DNA of 64,000 nt from Hoplostethus atlanticus. Lineage: Eukaryota > Chordata > Actinopteri > Trachichthyiformes > Trachichthyidae. The first letter of the stretch is position 1. Each line of letters begins with the position of its first letter. The translations under genes were made by a program, and so were the position numbers. Positions 13,801 through 41,000 of the stretch are shown here, one piece after another. The notes below the pieces were generated by a model, which saw only the letters and a program-made list of their open reading frames with translations, was not told the DNA's origin and did no database searches. The stretch is taken from NCBI GenBank assembly GCA_034670405.1, contig JAXDDX010000142.1, positions 124,001 through 188,000 of the forward strand, written 5' to 3'.

Positions 13801-16800
13801 TGTCACCCCCCCCCACACACACACACCCTTTGCCCTGCACCAATCTCTCCATTGGCCCTTTTGACAGGCACCAGTGAGAAGTCAGAACATCAATAGACCA
13901 TTGTCACAGATTCTGAACTTTGACAAACTGATGACCGGGAACTGCGACATTGTTTTCAGTAATATTTCCCAACTGTCAACTTTGAGTCATCAGTATGACT
14001 TTTTAATATTTGACAACTTTGATGGCTACGTGGCAGTGAATAATATAGGCTGATGAAACTGATCTAAAATACTTTCCTTTCTACTTGGGATGAAAATGCA
14101 TGTACAATTATGACAATTCAGATGCGATATGTGAATTCTAGCCTAGACTTATATCAATGAAAGGTCCATTACATATGAAACCCCACACAAATGAATGAAT
14201 ATGAACTTGGCTTAAATGTGAAACTATTTAAGTGAAGTTGTGAGACAGCCAGTGGCGGCTGGCCAATAGAGGGCGCTAGGGCGCCGCCCCACCACTCCCC
14301 ACATCCTAGACTTCATTGAATAAGACTTTAAAAATTACTTAGAATTTTTTCTTTTTTCAAAAGAGCGAGGTAAATATTATATAGTTAGTGAGTAAAATGT
14401 ATAATCAGCAATAAAATGTAGATTAAAATTGTTCTACGTTGTCTAAAGTTACTGCTAGGTCACGTATTTCCGGCCTGGGGCGCAAAAATCTTTGTCCATT
14501 GACTCTCGTTATAAATTGTACATGCGCAGTTCACTCCTCTCAATACAAGAGATAGGAGCTTGGTGGGGCGCAGGAAAGCTGCAAGCATAATGAAGAGGTT
14601 GACAAAAACAGGCACATCCTGTCTAAAATAATAAACTGTGTCAAGTTCTGTGGTGCCATAGAGTCATTGAGAAAAATGTATGTACAAAAGGTTTAAGCCA
14701 CAAGGTAGCAAAGTCATATGGCTTTGAGCCAGTTCACTCAGCTTTTTGATGGCACTGGGTATTTCAAATGTTATTTTCTATTAGGTCTTAATGTGTTCAT
14801 AATTTTCTGCCATTGTCTCAGGGTTTTGTGTTGTCAGATTTCTGTTGCACTTATCGAGGCACTTTTCGGTTACTTTAGTCTTTCACCATTACATATTGTA
14901 GTATAAAAGATAATTATTATAAAGAATTTGCACTAATTGAAGTACCTTAACTTACCTTAAGCACGTTTCATTACAACAAATGTTGTAATTTTAAGTTTAT
15001 GATGCAATGTGAATACAAATTTTTAATCTCTTTAATTTTACTTCTGACTGAAATTTGGATTGCAGAATTGTGATTGTGAAACCTGGAAAATTGACATAAC
15101 TGTCTAAGTCCAGACCCATGTATGTATGCACTATAACTAGTCTGTTCTGTTGTCTATGTTGTCTCTTATGTTTGGAGTATGAGACTGTATGACTCCCAAG
15201 GAAGGTCAAGCATAATGGCCACAGCCTGGGGGGCTTTGGATGGGCAGTGTGTGATCACCTTTTACAGACAAAAAGAGATTCTTAATGCTCATGGATGAGC
15301 AGTCATGGACATGGTGGTCAGTAAGCCTTTGCAGCTTCTGCAGAAAATAAAGCAGCTAGTATTGTTAGTTTCTTTTTTGTTGATATTTGCTTCCCTCATT
15401 TTCTATTAGGGATTATTTGTATCTATTAGTATTTTTATTTATTCATTAGTGCACCATTTGACTCAGAGCTCAGATTGGCTGTGACATCATGACATTCTGA
15501 GAGACACAATGGGCACCAGATGAAACTCAGAGCTTCAGACTTCACTCTACCAACCTGAAAGAAACAGCGATTTCATTGTCTTAGTTAGCAAACCATTACA
15601 ATTTCATTCATTTAACAAAAGCAATTATGGAGGAGACTTTCTGTCCAGGTATTTTTCTTTTTTAAACAGATCTACTATTACTGTCTGGTTAATTGTCTCT
15701 GTGTGATAAAAGATGAAGCTAAATGTTTTAGAACTGAAACTCTCTGTCAGCCTATGTTTTTGCTAACATGCTGACATACCTTGTCTCACTTCTTTCAGCG
15801 TGGATGGATCAAGTCATTCGCCTCAACGCCCTCAAAGGTGATGATGACGAATTCATGGCTTACACCTCAGCCAACGACCATGGGGAGAGACGATATGCTT
15901 ACGCTCCAGCCTCTATCAATGGATACGCTGTTGAGCTCAACTGTGCCCTTTCCCCATTTTCTCAGCCGACCGTAGGCTCCAGATCTACCTGTGGACTTGA
16001 GAGTCTCCACTTCTGGGAACCAGTAGTCAGCGCAGAGGAAGACGTACCTCTCGTAGCTAAGGACGAGACTTCAGGAAATGCTGAACCATGCAGCCATCCA
16101 GTCCAGGACGCCGAGAGTCCATCCAACCTGCTCAGAGATGCTGAGGCTTCATTCAGCATGTTGCAAACCAGTGAGACCATAGAGCTCATTGGGAGGCTGC
16201 TGCAGCAATCCTTCATTGGTGACCTAGAAGACCACGTGTATGAATACTGCAAGAATGTACTTGGTGAAAAGTACTTCTATGCTCCTTCATCTGATGTATC
16301 TGGATTTGTGGTTGACTGCTCTTCACCCTGTGGGCCATATAAAAACCAGCTTGATACATGGGAGCCAGTCGTCATAGCAGATTCTGACTCAATGCAATTC
16401 CTCTCAGACTTGGAAAAAGAGGAAGAGGGCCAAGACCACGTGGTCCTCAAGGAAGACAAAGTCATGTTTTCTGCCAGTGATCCAATTGATGAAAGTGCCA
16501 CAAGTGTCCATGAAGATGCAAATCCTGAGTGTGATGAGAAAAACAACGTCACTACTTTGCTCTGTGCTGGGCCTGACAGCAGTATCACTGCACAGGAGGA
16601 GGGAGACTTCGTCCAAGGGCTCAACCCTGCAGGACTTGATCGCTCCAACGTTGAGCTCACCGCTTCAAAACCAAAGAAAGAGAGGAAGAATTCTGTCTGC
16701 TTCTCTTGGCTCTTCCGTCTCTTCAGGCGAAAGAAGAACAGCAAATCCTCTAATGCAAATCGTACTTGAATCATGATGCTTATTGTCATGTTCAAATAAA

Positions 16801-19800
16801 TGTATTTAAACTAAATACATTTAAACTAAATACATTGTGGATTCTATCTGTACAAGTGTATTTGTATAAACCAAGGGATCTACTATTCTTTGTTTTGTTT
16901 TAATGTCATTTTTTGTCATTTTGGAACAAAACTCAATATTGCCTACAGAAGTAGAGTCTTGTTTTGGGGCTGATCCATTGGCTACCAAAGCAGGGAAGCT
17001 TCCACACTGCAGACCTTCTCAAAAACAAGGAGGCATCTGCAAGATGATGAGAATGCATTTTCATCAGCAGCCCACACCTGATTCCTTGTCATTTTACTTT
17101 ACAGTTAAATGTTTTACAGCTCAGCAAATACAAATAAAGGCCTTTTCATTTATTTAAATACACTGATTATACCTTAGTACAAGTTTGCTTGATTTTTGGT
17201 ATAGCCCCCCCTGGAGAAAAATGCACCAGCCGCCACTGGAGACAGCCTAGCAATCCATTAACATTGCTAGCACTGGATGCAGCCTACTATGCCACCCTGA
17301 TTTAGGAATTGAGTGTTGTTGACTTTTGTATTCATGAATTACAGTTCAAATTCAAAATGACAGTTATTATGGCTTCCTCCTCACCAGCAGTGCCAAATGA
17401 CCCAATTAAGCTTGAAGCTGTGCCGGTAATAGGGGCTATCTCACCTGCCTCGTGGGGATTAAAATACAGTATACCTGCCCCTAATGGCATGATCTCCCCT
17501 TTTTCCTAATAGACTGAAAATAAAGGTATTTTCATGCAAATTACAGTGCAAACATCCATTAAACTTCTTGGTCCCCTTTGGCCCTGCTCAGCTCTTCTTG
17601 GGTGGATCTTGGTATGTATAGCTCTGTTCTGAGGAAGTCATTCCACCGCAAATACTGTGGCATTTTCACCTCCAAATCCCTGAGGCTCGAATCAAGCATA
17701 GAAACCATCCACAGTACAGTCATTACAGATGCATGATATGCATTTGTAATTCTGAGCACATCATCTCTCAGATCTGTAGTATGTTGACTGATTTCCACAC
17801 TTCAAAAATAGGAAAATGGGATTGGTTTGGGGGTGACGACGGCTGAATTTAAATGATTTCAATTTAATGTTTCTCAATTGACTGTTCCCATTCCCTTTAT
17901 ATGGAGTGGAGGATGGCAGCACAAAATGGGCAAATAAGGACATAGATTACAGCTAAAAAATCCTTCATGGCTATATGAAATATATGACTTGGGCATTTTG
18001 AAGAGCTGCTGTTGAATCAATAACAGTTTGTGTAGTACAAGTTAATGTCTATATAAATAAAAGTAATATAATAAGAATACATGAGGCCTGAATATGGAAA
18101 TATGACAATATGAATACATGAAGCACACTGTGCATTGATGCAACAGAGTAGCAGACCTGTCTCCTCCAATCCCATCAACCAATGTGGCTGCATTAAAATC
18201 TGAATTTGAATTATACAGAGAAATCCAAAACAAAAGGATTACTGAATGATCCTCTTCATCACTCAGCCTCAGAGAGGGGAGTATCAGTGATTACTAGTTT
18301 TACTCCAATCATAAAGCTAAGATTGCTTTAATTATCTGCCTGTCAAACCCTTTAAGAAAAAAAAACTCTCTAGTGCATCTGGAAAAGAAACAATTTCATC
18401 TGTCATTCTGTGTCCAGATCAAAATGTTAATGTACGTGTTTCAGTTGATCCACTGTATGACTTTACCCCCTCTGGTTTTTCCTTCATGCACATTCTCTGT
18501 CATTTGTATTGTAGCTCCCATCTCACCATGGCTCAGTAAGCTTATCAAACATTAGTGTATTTGTATAATTGATCTGGATAATCATCGGGATTATGGAAAT
18601 TATTCACAGAAATCTCTGAAGTAAATGTTGTACATGTTAATTTGTTTTTGTCCATCCTGGCAATAATAATTCCAAAACTCAAAACTTATTTGTACTTTTT
18701 TTGTATTTATGTGTGTACGAAAATACCAGTGTGGGATTCATAACGCATGCGGAAAACGTTGATTTGTGCGAACCCCAGGTGTATCAGATGATCAATGCCA
18801 ATCGTTTGTAAATGGGATGCATGTGCCTGTTCAAGACGATTCGCATTCCTGTTCAACACTATACAAAGGCCTGCAGACTGAACCATGGCCGAAAGAGGGA
18901 AAAGAGGAACTTTGCAGAGTCCAAAATTGAAGTGTTGCACGCGTGCATGCATGAGAGAACAACCGAGTTTTCAGAAGCTTAAGCAGCGGCGTCACAAGAA
19001 ATGAAATGGATTAAAAATTGGATTAATAACGAGAAGCAGACACTTATTAGGAGGACGGCAACACACTGTGGCGCTATTCGACATGGATCAAAGGATCAGT
19101 TCCATAATTGGAGCGACCTCATTGTCCGTGTCCAGCCGGCATTGGAGTTGCACACCGATCAAACCCAGGCTGTGTCTTCATCAGATAGTCATAAGATAAT
19201 ATAATTGTATTTGTAAGGCGTTCAGTCCATGTGATCAACCCATTACAAGTTGGATAATCTTGTATTGTTACGAATGGACAATTCTGCAAATACGCCAATT
19301 CAGCCTTTCTTTCTTTTCTACAAGGCCACTGAAGCATCTTGTTGGTAATGAGGTTTGGCACAACTGTAATTGAGTTTGCATGAAGAATAAGGCATTCAGA
19401 GTGCCTTCCTGCATGTTACCAAACACTGGTAGGTTTTGATCGTACCAACGAACAAATTCAGATATGAACAAAATGATGAATCAGAGGCCCAATTAGTTCA
19501 GTTGCCCTGAATCTTACATGGTTAATAACACTTGCTGTTGGTGTTTCGGCTTTTTCATTAATCATAAATCCAGCCTGAAAAAGAGAGTGCTTTTTAAGAG
19601 GCTTCTAGGCATTAGTGATACAGGTACATCTTGCACAGAGCTGAATCCCATCTCAAGTCATATATTTCCCAGTAGAGATCTTCATTCTGATAGCTATACA
19701 TATTTCAGACTGAGTTCCAAACATTGCTTGTGCCACTGTACACATTTTCTGTGCATAGCTCATTTTTTTCCAGACGTGAAAGATGGTGGTGTAAAATCAC

Positions 19801-29263: not shown

Positions 29264-31921
29264 GGTTGCAGCAGCATAACAGTATCACAAGAATGTACAA
29301 AATACAAAGGCAAGGTACAAAATACAAAAAACAAAGGCCTAAAAACCAACTACTAAAAAACTACGGTACTAGGTGACATAGAACCAGGATGTACAGCGGA
29401 TGGATGGCATGTTCACATATATACAAGCAGGGAAGAGCGAATGAATGGATGGTACATGTACACAGAGTTAAAGAATGGTGATGGGTGAATGAACGTGAAA
29501 GGGAATGAGTGGCTGGAGTGTCTAAAGTGCAGGGCAATGAATAAGTGTGAAAGGAAATGAATAAATGCAGGGCAGTGAATGAATGGGAATGGATAAAGTG
29601 GATAAAGTGCAGGGCAATGGCAATGAATGAATGTGAAAGGGAATGAATAAAGGATGCTAGGTGATAGGAAAGACTTCCTGTAGCGCTCAGATCCACGGAT
29701 GATGCTGTCTCCCAGGTACTGCACACCACACTCTCTCATCTGGACAGCCGGAAGGGGGGCTATGTGAGACTGCTGTTCATTGACTATAGTTCAGCTTTCA
29801 ATACCATAGTCCCCACCAGACTGGCTGGCAAGTTGATGGAGCTGGGACTGAACACCCCCCTGTGTGCCTGGATCCTGGACTTCCTGACCGCCAGGCCCCA
29901 GGTGGTCAGGGTGGGTAGACACACCTCCAACCGCCTCACCCTGAACACAGGATCCCCCCAGGGTTGCGTCCTCAGCCCCCTACTGTACTCCCTGTACACA
30001 CATGACTGTGTGGCCAGGTTCAGCTCCAACTCCATCATCAAGTTTGCGGATGACACAGTGGTGGTGGGCCTGATCTCCGACAACGACGAGAAGGCCTACC
30101 TGGAGGAAGTTGCTGATCTGTCACTCTGGTGCCAGGACAACAGCCTCCTCCTGAATGTCACCAAAACTAAGGAGCTGATTGTGGACTTTAGGAGGACACA
30201 ACAACAGAGGACGTACTCACCACTGGGGATTAATGGGACTACTGTGGAGAGGGTGAGCAGGTATAAATACCTGGGAGTCAACATCACCGAAGATCTCACA
30301 TGGTCCACACACACTGACACTCTGGTGAGAAAGGCGAGGCAGCGCCTTTACCACCTCAGGCAACTGAGGAAATTTAAAGTCTCCCGGAGGATCCTTCAGT
30401 CCTTCTACTCTGGAGCTGTAGAGAGCATCCTGACAGGAAGCATCACTGCCTGGTTTGGCAGCAGCTCCGCTCAGGACAGGAAGGCTCTGCAGAGAGTAGT
30501 GCGTTCGGCTGAGCGCACTATTGGAACTACACTCCCCACCCTGCAGGACTTGTACACCAGGAGGTGCAGAACCAGAGCCTGCAGGATCATGAAGGATCCT
30601 CACCACCCCAACAACGGACTGTTTCAGCTGCTGCGGTCAGGCAAGCGCCTCCGTAGTCACGCTGCCAAAACAGAGAGACTGAGACGGAGTTTCTTTCCTC
30701 AGGCCATCAGGACTGTGAACTCTGACCTCACCAGGGCCCCCACCAAGACACACACACTGCCCCTCTTATGCACACACACACTTAGGTAAAGACTACACAT
30801 AATTTATAATTTATATTATATTATACATACAATTTTCCCTTTTTTACTATATTTTTTTATAAAGTGCTCTTATTGTAAATATTGTGTTTTTTTTTTTTTT
30901 TATATAGAGCTCTTAAAAACTGTGACATTGTAAATATTGTGTTAGTTTATTGTAAATAGTGTGAACCTGTTATTTTGCACATTTCTGCTGAGCATTGCCA
31001 CTTTGCATTTCACTACACACCTCGTGTGTGTATGTGACAATTAAACTTCTTGAATCTTGAATCTTGAATCTCTGTCGCACCGTGGTTTGATCAGTAAACC
31101 ATGACTTTATGAAATGAACAGATAACTTACAAATTCAAGAACGCATGAAGACACAGGAGAAGCAGTGTGACTGTTGTGATGGTGGATACTGGTGGGCAAC
31201 CAAACACTCTTCACTGAGCACCTGTGGCTGATCGCCTTGATTAGTGGCTAGATTGGTATGAATGGTGGAGAATTAGTTAGATGCCATTAACCAGGGAGAA
31301 TTCGCAACACAACCTGAGACAAATCCTGGTGACAGACAAACTGAATACTATTCAAATAGGCTTAAAATTATAATAAGATTTGACCAATTTTACCCTACTG
31401 ATGCATACAGTTTGATCAAGGGAGATACATGTGAATGTGTAGAGTAGGGAGGATGTTGAGAGGAGGAGATGTCTTATATCAACTGTGTTGCGAATCACCA
31501 GGGCTAACAGCCTCCAGAAGATTCAGCTAAATCTAAGAATCAGGTTGGACTGTCAGTCCAGCCTAAGAGCTATTTGGGATATACAGCACTGTGCAAAAGT
31601 CTACTGTGCAAAAGGTACAAAAATTCTGCTTTCAAAAATAATGAAATGAGAAGTTTTTAAATATCAAAAAGATTGCTATAAAGAGCAGTAACGTAAAACA
31701 ATAATGCACAAAACTAAAAAATAAACATCTAGGACCAAATTTATATGAATAAAAATGTAGGGTGCCTAAAACTTTTGCACAGTACTGTACTAAATCATTG
31801 ACCTGGCCATTGTGAGACTGTTGGCAGATGAAAGATGATCGTTTGTGGGTACAGGGGCCTCCACGGAAGATATAGTGGCAAGAGTGAGTGGATGTGGAAG
31901 TAGGACAGGCTGGAGCGGGCA

Positions 31922-35000: not shown

Positions 35001-38000
35001 AACTTGTGGAATGGCTTAAGACTAGTTGGGGAGTTCAAAAATACAATTAATATTTATCAATCTTCCATGTGCATATATGTAATTGGTACTCGGGACCAAA
35101 CCATTTGCCACTGATGTCCATGTACCAGTCACAAATATCTGTAAGCATGTCTGTTCAGTAGGAAACTTAGTCTACTATCACTAACAACAAATAGATGAAG
35201 AACAAACTCTCCAACCATGGTGGTGCAGTAATGAACTGCAGTATATTTACTTCCATACTGACATTACTTACATGCACACATTTAACTAAGGCAATTTATA
35301 ATTGAATTATTCACTAAAAATGGAAATCATTACTTTTCCATGTTCTTAATGTAATGGGATGTCTGAAAAGCAAGGATATATTGTGAAACGAGTGTAGGTA
35401 TATACTTTTGGCCCTTCTCTCAGACACAACAGGTAAATATCAACCAAACCCATTTAATACACCACATTACCGTGATGGCTAACAACAGCCACACTCATTT
35501 CAAATGAATTGCACTTGAGGGACCCTCGGTGAGTTGACACCCCATCGATTTTTGCCCCTTAACACTCCCCAAACCACTGAAGCCGAAGTCGGCTGTGATA
35601 GAGAGGGTTTGATAGGGAAGATAGAGTATGGATAAGGGCCCAATAAGGCAGCTGATAGTCGCCTTACTGGTGCAAGCTGCTTTGAGGCATGCTGATGAGG
35701 TCAGTGTCTAGGGGGAGTTCAGTGAGAGACTGGCTAAAAGCTTGTTCTTGCTGTAAAGCAGGCATAAACATGTTCCCCTGCTGGGAGAAAGTCAGTGGCC
35801 GAGCATGAAGGTAAGAATGATTATCATTTGTCAAAGCTTATCGCCATTTCGCACCCCACACCAACTGACATCATAGATCGGCTCCCATTAACACAAACCT
35901 GAACAGACAGAAAAACCTGTTTGAATCTCACAACCAAAGGCCAGCAAACAGATTGGAGCCATTGCCAACAAATATATCACATGTATATTGTATATGGTTT
36001 AGAAGCACTTGTCAAATGACAGCGAAACAGGCTGGCGTGAAGGGCACCAAAGGGGCGATGTGAATACACAGACATTGGCTATGTATTAACATATACAACT
36101 CCATATGATATTTATGAAGGTGGTCTGGAGGTTGGAATGATGGATGGGATGAGCCAATCCTTATAAATTAAAAATGAGTATCTGCTTCACCAGGTGCTTG
36201 GCGACTACGCCTACATATAAATGTCACTGCAGAGTGGCAATGGAATAAAATGTTCACTCAACTTGGTCAAATCCTCTGAAAATAACACCAAGGACCAGGG
36301 AATTTGAACAATATTGATTTCTGCCTTCATTGCTTGAAAATACACATTGATTCAGGGAGGGGTGAATATGAGTCTGAAGAAATCTGACTTTATAATAAAT
36401 CAAGGGTCAGATATCAAAGGTTGCATATTGACAAGCTGGCTTAAAAGGTGACAGTCGTTTTGAATTCAAAACAAGAAAACATGGTGTAGAAATGCAATGT
36501 GCTCTTTTTGCTTCCCCTGCAAAGAAGATTTGTACTGCTAGTTTACCTGTGCTTCATCTTGGATTTAAAAGGAGATGCTCACAGAGAGCCCATTCATTAA
36601 TCAATACCGGTTTGATTATGGTCTCATACAGACAAGTCTATACACAAGTCTATACCAGAAAAGTAACACTGTAAAAGTAATAAAAGAAGATAAGATAAGA
36701 AAACGATTAATGATTGCCAAATCCATCAATTAAACCCTTTTCATTAACTGACCTAATGAACTCCAATAACAAATCGCATGGCGCATCCAAGTCTTGCTTC
36801 TGTTCTCATTCACTTAGCAGCGAAGACAGTCAAGGACAGATCAGAGCAGAAAAAGACAGGAAATTGAAATTGAGGAAGCATAGCAGCGTTACTCTGCCAA
36901 AGCATTCCAGAGCTCGCAGCAATCCAGATACTTTACTTTCCTTAAATCATCAGTCATTAGCTTGTGTGTAATGACAGGTGATGAATAGCTTGCAAACAGT
37001 TCCTTGTGGACATACAGAAGACGGCACTATTGACTTGCATGTTACGTGTTGTGTGTTTGTGTTTGAGTTAAATGTTGTCAGTTATGACTACACCAAGCTG
37101 GCTCCCTCAGCAACAACCTCTACCTCCCACACAGAAATGTCCTTTCACCAGAAAACGTTTTCTCTTGCAGCATATGGATTAGGAACAGATCCATTTGGCC
37201 TAACCACGTTACAATAGCAACAGGGATACAAGGCTGCATTCAGGTCATGAGTCACATCATTAGCGCTGGATTAAAGTCTTCACACTTTCTGAACATACAC
37301 AATTGGCATAAGAAGGGCCAGGGATTGCATGCCATGAATTTGGAAAAGCAATTTAGAGGCAGTTGTTAACTTTTCAACACAGAGCCAACGTGAGCAATGA
37401 GCTAAAGAGCAATACAATGTGCCAGGAGAAGGGTGCTTTTATATCGTTGGCTTGCTGTCCACATTACGAAACTGAATTTGACTTGCAAAGCATCTGTGCC
37501 GAGGGGCTAATGTCTGTTTTCAGCTCTAATAGATAAACGGTGAAAAATTTGGCACATGAATAATCATGGGTATAGTTGGGATTATGATTCTCTGGTGTGA
37601 AAGCGTCACAGCAGTAGGCCTAGTCAACAAGGCTGAACCGCTGTACACTGGAGTTTCAGGGGAGAAGAACGGAAAGTGGATAACCTTTCCTCTAGGGTAA
37701 ACGAGACGTGACTGAGAAGTTGATGTCTGATTGAAATGGGACAGATAAAACCAATCAAATACTATGTAGGGTGAAAGCGTGAGTTTATTACTGAAGTGGG
37801 AATGGATGGGGTGGGCTGAGGAGGACATGGTGCTAATGGGAACATCTCTGCCTGCCCTGGTTTTTCCATTACGATGGGAGAAACAGACTACATAGCATGC
37901 ACCATGATGCACTGAGCCATAGAGCTCTCCAATCTTTGAACTACTTCCCTTGACACCAGTTGGCCGTGTAGTATTCTCTTTAAATTCAATGTGTAGTGTT

Positions 38001-41000
38001 GAGTGAAAGAAATGGCCAACAGCACTGACCTGGCCCAGTAGCTCGGGCAGCCCCAGCACTTGTCCAGTGAACACTCCCAAGCAGATCAGTATGGCGTTAA
38101 ATTGGCCAATGGAACCTCTTATATGTCTCGGGGAAATTTCTCCCAGATACATGGGGAGGGCACTGAGAGCTATACCTATAAAAAAAATATAGAAATAAAA
38201 ATGATTACGTCATTGATGTATCAAGTGATACATTCTATCTGCAAATCTTGCTGTGTAAAAGACAGGGTGAACACTCTGCATGTTTGATATGATGCATAGC
38301 TGGCTCAGAAATCCCAACACTGATCAGCTGATGAGCATATAACCAGTCTGAAATACTGCAGTATTTCCACTATGTATAGGCGATTCAACCCTGACACACA
38401 TGCCTTTCAAGAGCTATTGGTCAGCAGTGAGCATTTAAGGCCACATGAATGTTTATCCTCTTATCAGACATTTGCTTCCTTCCCTTATCTAATGTGCCAA
38501 ATCCAGAACAAAAGAAAGCGACACTGACCTCTCATGAAGTAATTTACTGTTAGGACTGTGAAGATTGATTTGTCCTCAAATAGTCCCTTGAAAGGTTGCT
38601 CTCAATTCTACTTATCTAATCATTATAATGGTAAAAAGCACTGGAGAGCACTAAAGTACTAAAGTGAACTGTAAAAGTGGTGATTTTACATGCTCAGCGA
38701 TTGGCACTGATTCAATCAAAGTCATGTACGTCTCCTAGAGACTATTTTTAGCAGAGCAGGATAATAGGCAGATTCCTCCAACCTAGTAAAAGTAGCACTT
38801 ACCGGAGTCCACCCCCATGATGAGACGGCCTATGATGAGCATCTCAAAAGATCCTGCCTTCTCCCCCAGGGTCAGCAGCAGAGCAGCGATTATTGCAAAG
38901 CTGTTATTCAGCAGTAAGGTGCCCTTTCTACAGCCAAAAAAGGACAGAGACAGTTGGGGAAAAAGCAAGAAGTGAAGTGGAGAATGTCAACAGTAGCCAC
39001 AGGTGGAAATGTTCCTGCTCAGAGCCTTCAATAGGACTGTAACAGCTTTTGCCATCAGGGGTGGCACTACGTGGTTTGGGCATTACAGTGGCAGGAATGA
39101 TTGATGATATTTTATCCAGTGTGGTGAGCCAACAATATATTAAAAGAAAATTCCAACCTCAGATCCTCTTAAACTGTTAGATCTCATCAATCAATGTTCA
39201 GTGCATTCCGGGAGTTGTACCCACTTTCCCCTCCACCTGCCATGTTTACTTCTACTTTAGTTAGATTTCTCAGAATGACTTTCAACAACCGCCAGAGAAG
39301 TATTCCATTTAGCTGTGGGTTGTATGTGGCCAGAGTAAAATTAGCTTGATGTTGGATATCGTATCTGCTGTGAATATTCATTTTTCCACCTTCAATAACT
39401 TGTAAAGCACAAGTAAAAGCAGATTAATTCATATATTTGTGATTAGTGGAAGAGGAAGAAAAAATTACAACCACTTCATTCAGTGTTTGAGAAAATATCT
39501 TATGTGCAGCCTGTTTGTTGAACTGTGTTGTGGCTGCATTGCATTATGGTCTATTGAGGCTACTGTCGATGGATAAATTGATATCTCTTCCTCTTCTTTG
39601 ATGGATTTCTCCCTGTATGATTGTTGAACATTGGTGCAAAATGGTGAGTCTAAAGAAGTCCTTGTTCTTTGATTCTGAGGGACTGACACCAAAACATGTT
39701 TACTGTTGATGTTTTAGTTAGTTTAAAATTGTCTCCTATCAAACTCAATTGTAGTTACACTGGAAATATCTTGACATGATGTCACATTGTCTACATTTGG
39801 GCAGTTATCCACTGGAATATGAAAAATAACAAAATGGACCCAGGAATGCAAAATACATCGCCAATAACTTTTTGCAACGGTGTTGAAGTGTGTTAGGGTG
39901 GATTTCTTAATTTTCAATGAGAATTTCAGAAATTGCAATGTATCCATCTTTATTGGAGGGAGGAAATCAGACTGGTAGGCTGGTTCTCCTGGCACCCGAC
40001 ACCAGCTGCAGCCAATTAAGGCTAATTGGACAACTGCAGCCTGGAATTGATTTGACCATGTGTTTCCAGTGAGTGGGGCAGTAGGCACGCAAACCTGAAA
40101 GATTGAGGTGAAAAGCTGACCTGAGAGAGAGTGATTTTCAATGGTGGTCCGTTCTGTGATGCGTGGCCTGAAAATAAAACTGTGCACCTGCCAATAAACT
40201 CACCCTCTCTCTCTCCTGTTGCCAGTCTCTGTCCGTGACGACCCCAGGGTGGCAAAGCTTGTGCTACAATAATCTATTCTTTTCCAATTGAATCTCTCCC
40301 ATGCACTGTTCACATACTGTATCTTAATGCAGTGGTAAAAAGAATCAATACCTATTTTCATCCTACAGTCGAGAGAGAAACATTAAGTCAGGCCCACTGG
40401 ATGCTTTAAGATTCATTTAAATCATTGTGCTATCTTGATGTCAGTGTATTCATCTAACTTATAATTTATTCCTGAGTGAATGAATTGTTTCATCTCCACA
40501 GTATGTACATCAAAACATCAATGTGTCAAGATAGGCAGAATGATTTATTTAAACATTATATTCGAGAGGCAAACGTAGCAGACTAGACATGTTTGACATT
40601 ATTTATTTGTGCACGTGTCTGATGAGCAGGAAGCTTTTTGCATGAAATTCCTATTGTGTCACACTGTTACGTTTCCAGGTCAGAGCCGAATGACATGACA
40701 ATTCCCTCTGTGTAGGGAATGGACCACAACTCATTACTTTGGTTATTGGGTTGTTAGCCTGACTGGTTTTAATATCACCAGCCTTGTAGTGGTGATATTT
40801 GTTCAGACTATAAAGTGCTTGTTTTGTTTTGCTGTTCTTTTTCAAGCTGAATGACCTAGTTTTTGTGAATGGTCCTAAGTGCTGATTTTCTCTCTTCTTT
40901 TTAAGATGCTCCCAAGGCCAACAGTAAGTAGGAAGCCATTTCTCTAATGCCCTTCAAATGAGAATCCTCACCGAATACACAAGTATTTCAGAGGAAGCAA

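Follow-up and report, generated by a model that had tools for sequence, protein, structure and literature searches.

What is a complete two-exon gene doing between the two ends of a DNA transposon, and has it travelled with them? The question is raised by an element at positions 14250-17238 of a 64,000-nucleotide stretch of the genome of the fish Hoplostethus atlanticus (contig JAXDDX010000142.1, positions 124,001 to 188,000, forward strand; this whole stretch is called the window), for which an earlier note, made from the letters alone, had proposed a captured gene spread by a hAT-like transposase. The window element is a non-autonomous hAT-type element. Very probably, a non-autonomous hAT deletion derivative captured the complete two-exon gene and was mobilised in trans alongside gene-less siblings. 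The resulting family is an unusually clear animal case of mobile DNA with a complete host-type gene at dozens of places.

The 2,989-bp unit (window 14250-17238) is bounded by perfect 13-bp terminal inverted repeats (TIRs), the left one (CAGTGGCGGCTGG; 14250-14262, +) being the full complement of the right one (17226-17238, −), and is flanked by an exact 8-bp target-site duplication (TSD), GAGACAGC, with the same letters at 14242-14249 on the left and 17239-17246 on the right (neither with a strand); the complementary length is 14 nt if one flanking base is counted. Recomputation returned the TIRs, the TSD, the 2989-bp unit and the 330-aa two-exon frame as the earlier note had given them. At up to 3 mismatches the TIR was matched at 14 window places against 8.15 expected, a number reached in 6 of 100 shuffles; the exact matches were the two element ends only, the other 12 places having 2 or 3 mismatches. 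Two hallmarks of the hAT superfamily are present, namely short TIRs common to many copies and an 8-bp TSD, found at the window element (GAGACAGC) and its relatives. No transposase with the hAT dimerisation domain was found within the element, which holds only a decayed N-terminal remnant; the element is therefore named hAT-type by its ends and TSD only, as would be expected if it is non-autonomous.

The genome (632.8 Mb in 1,161 contigs) was searched with the element at the DNA level, 40 of 918 candidates being scored and 115 matching pieces listed, and whole-genome pattern counts were made at up to 3 mismatches each, with backward-read controls of 0 in every case. The left 27 bases of the element were found at 602 genome places, so the ends are not peculiar to one copy. 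The junction between gene and right end occurred at 61 places (54 exact), and the gene-less junction between left and right modules at 524. Among 38 fetched relatives, both ends and an exact 8-bp TSD were present in 15, the TSDs all being different, and a further 4 had a TSD matching at 7 of 8 bases; two of these 19 loci (L044 and L046) are truncated forms in which the gene is incomplete. That the right junction is identical at 61 places speaks for a single capture and, taken with the many individual 8-bp TSDs, indicates that the gene-bearing composite itself transposed. The counts thus point to a gene/right-end junction that was formed once, in a composite that then moved repeatedly, and the view that a host-type gene was spread by transposition inside a hAT-type element was borne out by the shared junction and the distinct TSDs. 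Copies with the same borders and without the gene had been named beforehand as telling against that view. Such copies do exist at the 524 gene-less places, and with them entry of the gene into a gene-less element is a fair possibility; the 61 gene-bearing places, with one junction and TSDs of their own, nevertheless support it. In a tree, the element-type copies group apart from the outside relatives L051-L053 with a support of 0.81.

By comparison of copies the element was divided into a left hAT module common to the gene-less form (14250-14984, +; right border approximate), a captured gene segment (14993-17106, +; left border approximate, right border sharp between TTTACAGTT and AAATGTT) and a right hAT module common to gene-less copies (17107-17238, +). 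In gene-less copies the left and right modules are joined directly (L047:1-176; L063), and the best 40 of 749 candidates for this form are identical over 176 bp. A listed gene-less junction was present within 6 kb of 67 of 99 left ends on contigs C1-C16, and the gene-less copies L063 and L064, both flanked by exact TSDs, are enlarged by unrelated inserts. Within the left module, a frame of 35 aa at 14583-14693 (+) reads as an N-terminal remnant of a hAT transposase and is not a working gene. This remnant was present in 150 of 150 scored places (of 914 candidates), and the fuller left modules of relatives read as a decayed transposase start, with a finger stretch resembling the hAT transposase at L065 (best E 6e-5; six left modules compared, with no composition correction). 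When the remnants, including the 35-aa window piece, were compared with Pfam, nothing relevant was returned. The statement in the earlier note that no transposase lies inside is accordingly right for the cargo frame, which is not a transposase, and too strong for the left module with its decayed transposase piece. The window copy is without about 350 bp of the left module that many relatives have and, measured against some copies, is short of about 70 bp at the left junction, of one or two 35-aa repeats of the cargo protein and of up to 46 nt of intron.

The cargo gene starts with the ATG at 15627. The coding part of exon 1 (15627-15648, +) gives MEETFCP and the first base of codon 8, the intron (15649-15798, +) spans 150 nt from GT to AG, and exon 2 with the stop (15799-16769, +) completes a protein of 330 aa with no internal stop; an AATAAA polyadenylation-type signal, read from the sequence, stands at 16795-16800 (+) and begins 26 bases past the stop. 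The protein contains one 35-aa repeat, of which some other copies have two or three, and a conserved tail of 23 residues in exon 2. Splice signals were surveyed in 43 element-type loci (nine of them with the constant other 3' end described below), and exon 1 was recognised in 36. The window copy has the donor GTATTT, the other 35 have GTAAGA, and compared with L025, L036 and others 17 nt are missing right after GTA in the window intron, together with a further 29 nt. The intron had been called clean; its length and GT-AG borders stand, its donor does not fit that word. The altered donor would be expected to make splicing of the window copy inefficient. The ATG start codon, the GT/AG intron borders and a frame open as far as the usual end were retained in 13 of the 43 loci, a count that includes a tandem pair (L042) at which the script joined exons of neighbouring copies. 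The stretch L042:2001-7374 is composed of two head-to-tail 2.9-kb gene-holding units with identical non-element flanks, a local tandem duplication. Comparison of the cargo protein and its relatives with Pfam gave only weak matches below the cut-off and no recognised domain, and comparison of the cargo protein with PDB gave no relative; with no transposase domain in Pfam, the frame is not a fragment of a hAT transposase.

Relatives of the gene are also present outside elements. In a protein search of the genome (121 of 238 candidates scored) at least 206 matches were obtained, the higher-ranked ones mostly more than 85% identical, with diverged members on contigs C187, C77, C25, C451, C388 and C569. 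The C187 member (L047) has the same first exon and intron layout and a 368-aa frame, and its nearer relatives lie on C19, C77, C105, C34 and C1. At L047:1140-3050 this diverged outside relative may represent the ancestral type of the gene; reading by eye suggests a third exon after ...FRRKNTISAK. The intron is retained in L048 and L049 (180 and 179 nt), with frames of 621 and 416 aa. No TIR with up to 2 mismatches was found in L048-L052; a single match resembling the right end was seen in L053, and a gene-less relic lies upstream in L047. Relatives that lack these ends have the intron in the same position, so the capture was of genomic DNA and not of a retrocopy. Three marks by which Pack-TIRs (gene-capturing TIR transposons) are recognised are seen here: host sequence between the ends, with no transposon domain and with relatives outside elements; capture as DNA, the intron being found in the elements and in L048 and L049 outside them; and spread of the chimera by transposition, with distinct TSDs. 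Contig C77 holds four family members of different types, which suggests a native gene cluster. One C77 member (L051:1411-2943) is interrupted by about 1.5 kb, largely of the simple repeat ERERDEQAHVQAE. A viral origin was also considered and set aside, a scan of viral contigs having given 15 pattern matches and no confirmed relative.

Selection on the cargo frame was analysed with exon 2 of 39 copies, including that of the window, one 795-nt coding stretch being used for indels. The copies diverge from their consensus by 1.5%, with 332 amino-acid-changing and 119 silent differences, a ratio of 2.79 against 2.93 expected without selection, and dN/dS among the 39 copies was about 0.95. The low divergence is in itself a sufficient explanation of the open frames. 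A frame-shifting indel was present in 20 of the 39 copies (in L039 such indels compensate each other and the frame stays open). The frame was shifted by 22 of 26 distinct coding indels, a share similar to that in the non-coding stretch alongside (42 of 54), and distinct substitutions per site were alike (0.32 coding, 0.37 non-coding). One 2-nt deletion common to four copies may be recurrent, since it is located in a short GA repeat. Against the outside relatives dN/dS was lower, with 0.25, 0.54 and 0.67 for pieces of L051, 0.40-0.55 for L048, 0.43 for L049, 0.29 and 0.62 for L050 and 0.44 for L047; among L048-L050 themselves it was mostly at least 0.9, on few differences, with 0.34 for one short piece. 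Lower values against outside relatives and a value of about 0.95 among copies indicate past constraint, and not clearly any since the spread. The pattern on the cargo protein since the spread is near-neutral; that the frame had been kept open by selection, as was claimed earlier, was not upheld, given this dN/dS and the 20 copies with frame-shifting indels.

In the mechanism favoured here, a hAT transposon would have lost most of its transposase by deletion, a short remnant surviving, and the non-autonomous element would then have taken up one genomic segment with the two-exon gene, its intron and its 3' end, from a multi-copy gene family resident in the same genome. Capture may have proceeded by template switching or gap repair, as a filler-like junction suggests. 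A transposase supplied from elsewhere would recognise the ends and mobilise the element in trans, the gene-bearing form moving just as do the gene-less siblings that far outnumber it, and the gene would be a passenger without a role in transposition; we infer from its behaviour that it is a passive one. The proposal takes no side on the order in which the gene-less and the gene-bearing form arose, and is compatible with the reversed order as well.

Several results weigh against this mechanism. A partner transposase for these ends was not found in the searches made, and it may be present elsewhere in the genome, in which hAT transposase domains are abundant. No long transposase frame was seen in the fetched stretches of copies with a longer 3' side, and the long interiors of the gene-less copies L062-L064 were unrelated inserts with no partner. 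At the remnant-bearing places (150 scored of 914 candidates) frames did not exceed 120 aa, so that no autonomous copy was seen among those 150. When 99 left ends, of the 602 genome-wide, were compared by coordinates with 21 hAT-domain matches, none of the latter was inside an element and one was 2.7 kb outside. The parent locus was likewise not pinned down, none of L048-L052 being a clear parent. The nearest outside relatives have 85-92% DNA identity in their best pieces and 70-77% elsewhere, and several are broken, L051-L053 being interrupted or frameshifted (L050 is broken according to the script). At 19 of the 38 fetched places one end or both were missing or no matching duplication was seen, and a different 3' end, which the hAT account leaves unexplained, is carried by a dozen or more gene copies. 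Stops are rarer than expected, with 4 against 15.5 in pooled counts, which are not independent as the copies are related, and 4 among 256 distinct substitutions against about 8.8 predicted from a stop share of 3.4%. Distinct indels are also fewer per site in the coding stretch, with 26 in 795 sites, than in the repeat-rich non-coding stretch next to it, with 54 in 313 sites that include a 15-bp tandem repeat. Both counts may hint at some constraint on the protein.

Two transposase-bearing loci were noted in this connection. L065 was tried as a partner and rejected: its 886-aa frame has DUF4371 and Dimer_Tnp_hAT, and its finger stretch is like that of the fuller left modules, but it has none of these TIRs. 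At L013:3673-4872, the decayed remains of a transposase from a different hAT type lie directly behind the gene segment; the left TIR is kept there, and no matching right end was found.

Of the other explanations, a reversal of order survives best and is a real, if lesser, possibility: the gene-bearing form would be the older, the gene-less form would be its internal deletion, and capture would have taken place in a longer ancestor. The left flank of L036 matches the gene-less junction through ACAAATGTTCATTCA, after which the gene segment starts; this identity can be explained by a deletion with a 2-base overlap (CA), but fits insertion into a gene-less element too. The gene-less form may moreover be young, being identical over 176 bp in the best 40 of 749 candidates. 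Since gene relatives without hAT ends exist, the gene would still have come from outside under either order.

It is rather improbable that the gene family was spread mainly by another mechanism, with variable starts and a constant 3' end at ...GATTTAGGATCA, the hAT-type copies forming one branch. Past the capture border, L017, L018, L019/L055, L042, L045/L054 and L056-L061 continue into a common downstream sequence, and all of them but L018, which departs early, stop within about ten bases of ...GATTTAGGATCA. The constant end is seen at L055:1-216 and at the ends of L017, L042, L054 and L056-L061 (...GAGAACCATGATTTAGGATCA), the starts being variable. It is reached at 13 gene-linked genome places; no right TIR was seen in the fetched stretches of these copies (1 kb only for L060 and L061), and no TSD in the eight tested. 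In the tree most of them branch off close to the base of the element clade, at low support. Yet the starts of L019, L045 and L056 coincide with the left hAT TIR or are one base away at most, L017, L019 and L057 pair with hAT-type copies, and the hAT right junction is present at 61 places. The first half of the common downstream sequence also adjoins outside relatives, and the sequence is for this reason taken as the native 3' flank of the gene.

Far less credible is an accessory gene that aids the element through expression, localisation or escape from silencing and was kept for that. Start, splice signals and frame are retained in 13 of 43 element-type loci (counting the mispaired tandem L042), and premature stops fall below expectation while coding indels are sparser than non-coding ones; a dN/dS of about 0.95, a share of frame-shifting indels as in non-coding DNA, frame-shifting indels in 20 of 39 copies and gene-less siblings about nine times as numerous all tell against it. 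Equally slight is the chance that the cargo is expressed from a captured control region and that its protein, with variable 35-aa repeats and a conserved basic tail that contains cysteine and tryptophan, benefits the element or damages its competitors; if true, a vertebrate hAT would here have an accessory gene of host origin and two routes of amplification, by the hAT ends and as the constant-3'-end form. That unrelated inverted repeats merely happen to flank an ordinary gene of this locus is refuted by the copies found across the genome, which have these same borders and TSDs of their own.

Two other features of the window were recorded. A 373-aa reverse transcriptase frame with RVT_1 lies at 29668-30786 (+), and a near-alike frame of 935 aa is present inside the gene-less element L064. 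A frame at 37529-38209 (−) matches the sugar transporter family PF00083 and is apparently part of a host gene.

The family described here provides, in its 61 gene-bearing and 524 gene-less junctions, a natural comparison for the cost or gain of a captured gene to a transposon. It bears on whether captured genes become new genes, and is a warning to annotators that much of this 'gene family' is transposon cargo. DNA transposons that take up host genes and multiply them are familiar from plants (PMC8277862, PMC8903248), and Pack-TIRs have been described in animals as well (PMC8277862), so that the 'undescribed system' of the earlier note was too strong a term. In open-access literature the TIR sequence was found only in an unrelated paper on a phage protein, and no gene-carrying hAT element of fish was recognised among the titles listed on hAT/TIR gene capture.

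To judge from the cited portion of the animal survey, host-gene capture is seldom seen at high copy in vertebrates: 370 Pack-TIRs were counted in 100 animal genomes, with only four multicopy cases (PMC8277862). One multicopy Pack-TIR of frogs has five copies, and Pack-hAT-N8_XT, with a captured 291-bp 5' UTR, has three (PMC8277862). The present family resembles Pack-hAT-N8_XT and the vertebrate Pack-TIRs, as far as they are described there, in having non-autonomous hAT ends around captured host sequence and several copies with distinct TSDs (PMC8277862); the parent sequence that those cases have elsewhere would here lie among the outside relatives of the gene. It differs from Pack-hAT-N8_XT in that a whole two-exon gene, or parts of it, stands behind one right junction at 61 places. 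Ssk-FB4 of Drosophila is MULE-like, with 9-10-bp TSDs, four copies and signatures of positive selection (PMC8277862). In the cited account of Ssk-FB4, too, a nearly complete gene with its upstream region was captured by a non-autonomous TIR element whose transposase is not known, and one of the capture breakpoints has a de novo insertion (PMC8277862); unlike the positive selection reported there, the pattern in the present family is near-neutral. With plant Pack-TYPE elements and maize Pack-hAT, as they appear in the part of the source cited, host DNA between transposon ends and the 8-nt hAT TSD are shared (PMC8903248), whereas the present family belongs to an animal and has a single gene in many copies. 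In principle the same as the Pack-TIRs, the family is in our view best filed as an animal "Pack-hAT", and it exceeds the vertebrate cases in the cited portion of that survey in copy number and in its whole intron-bearing gene.

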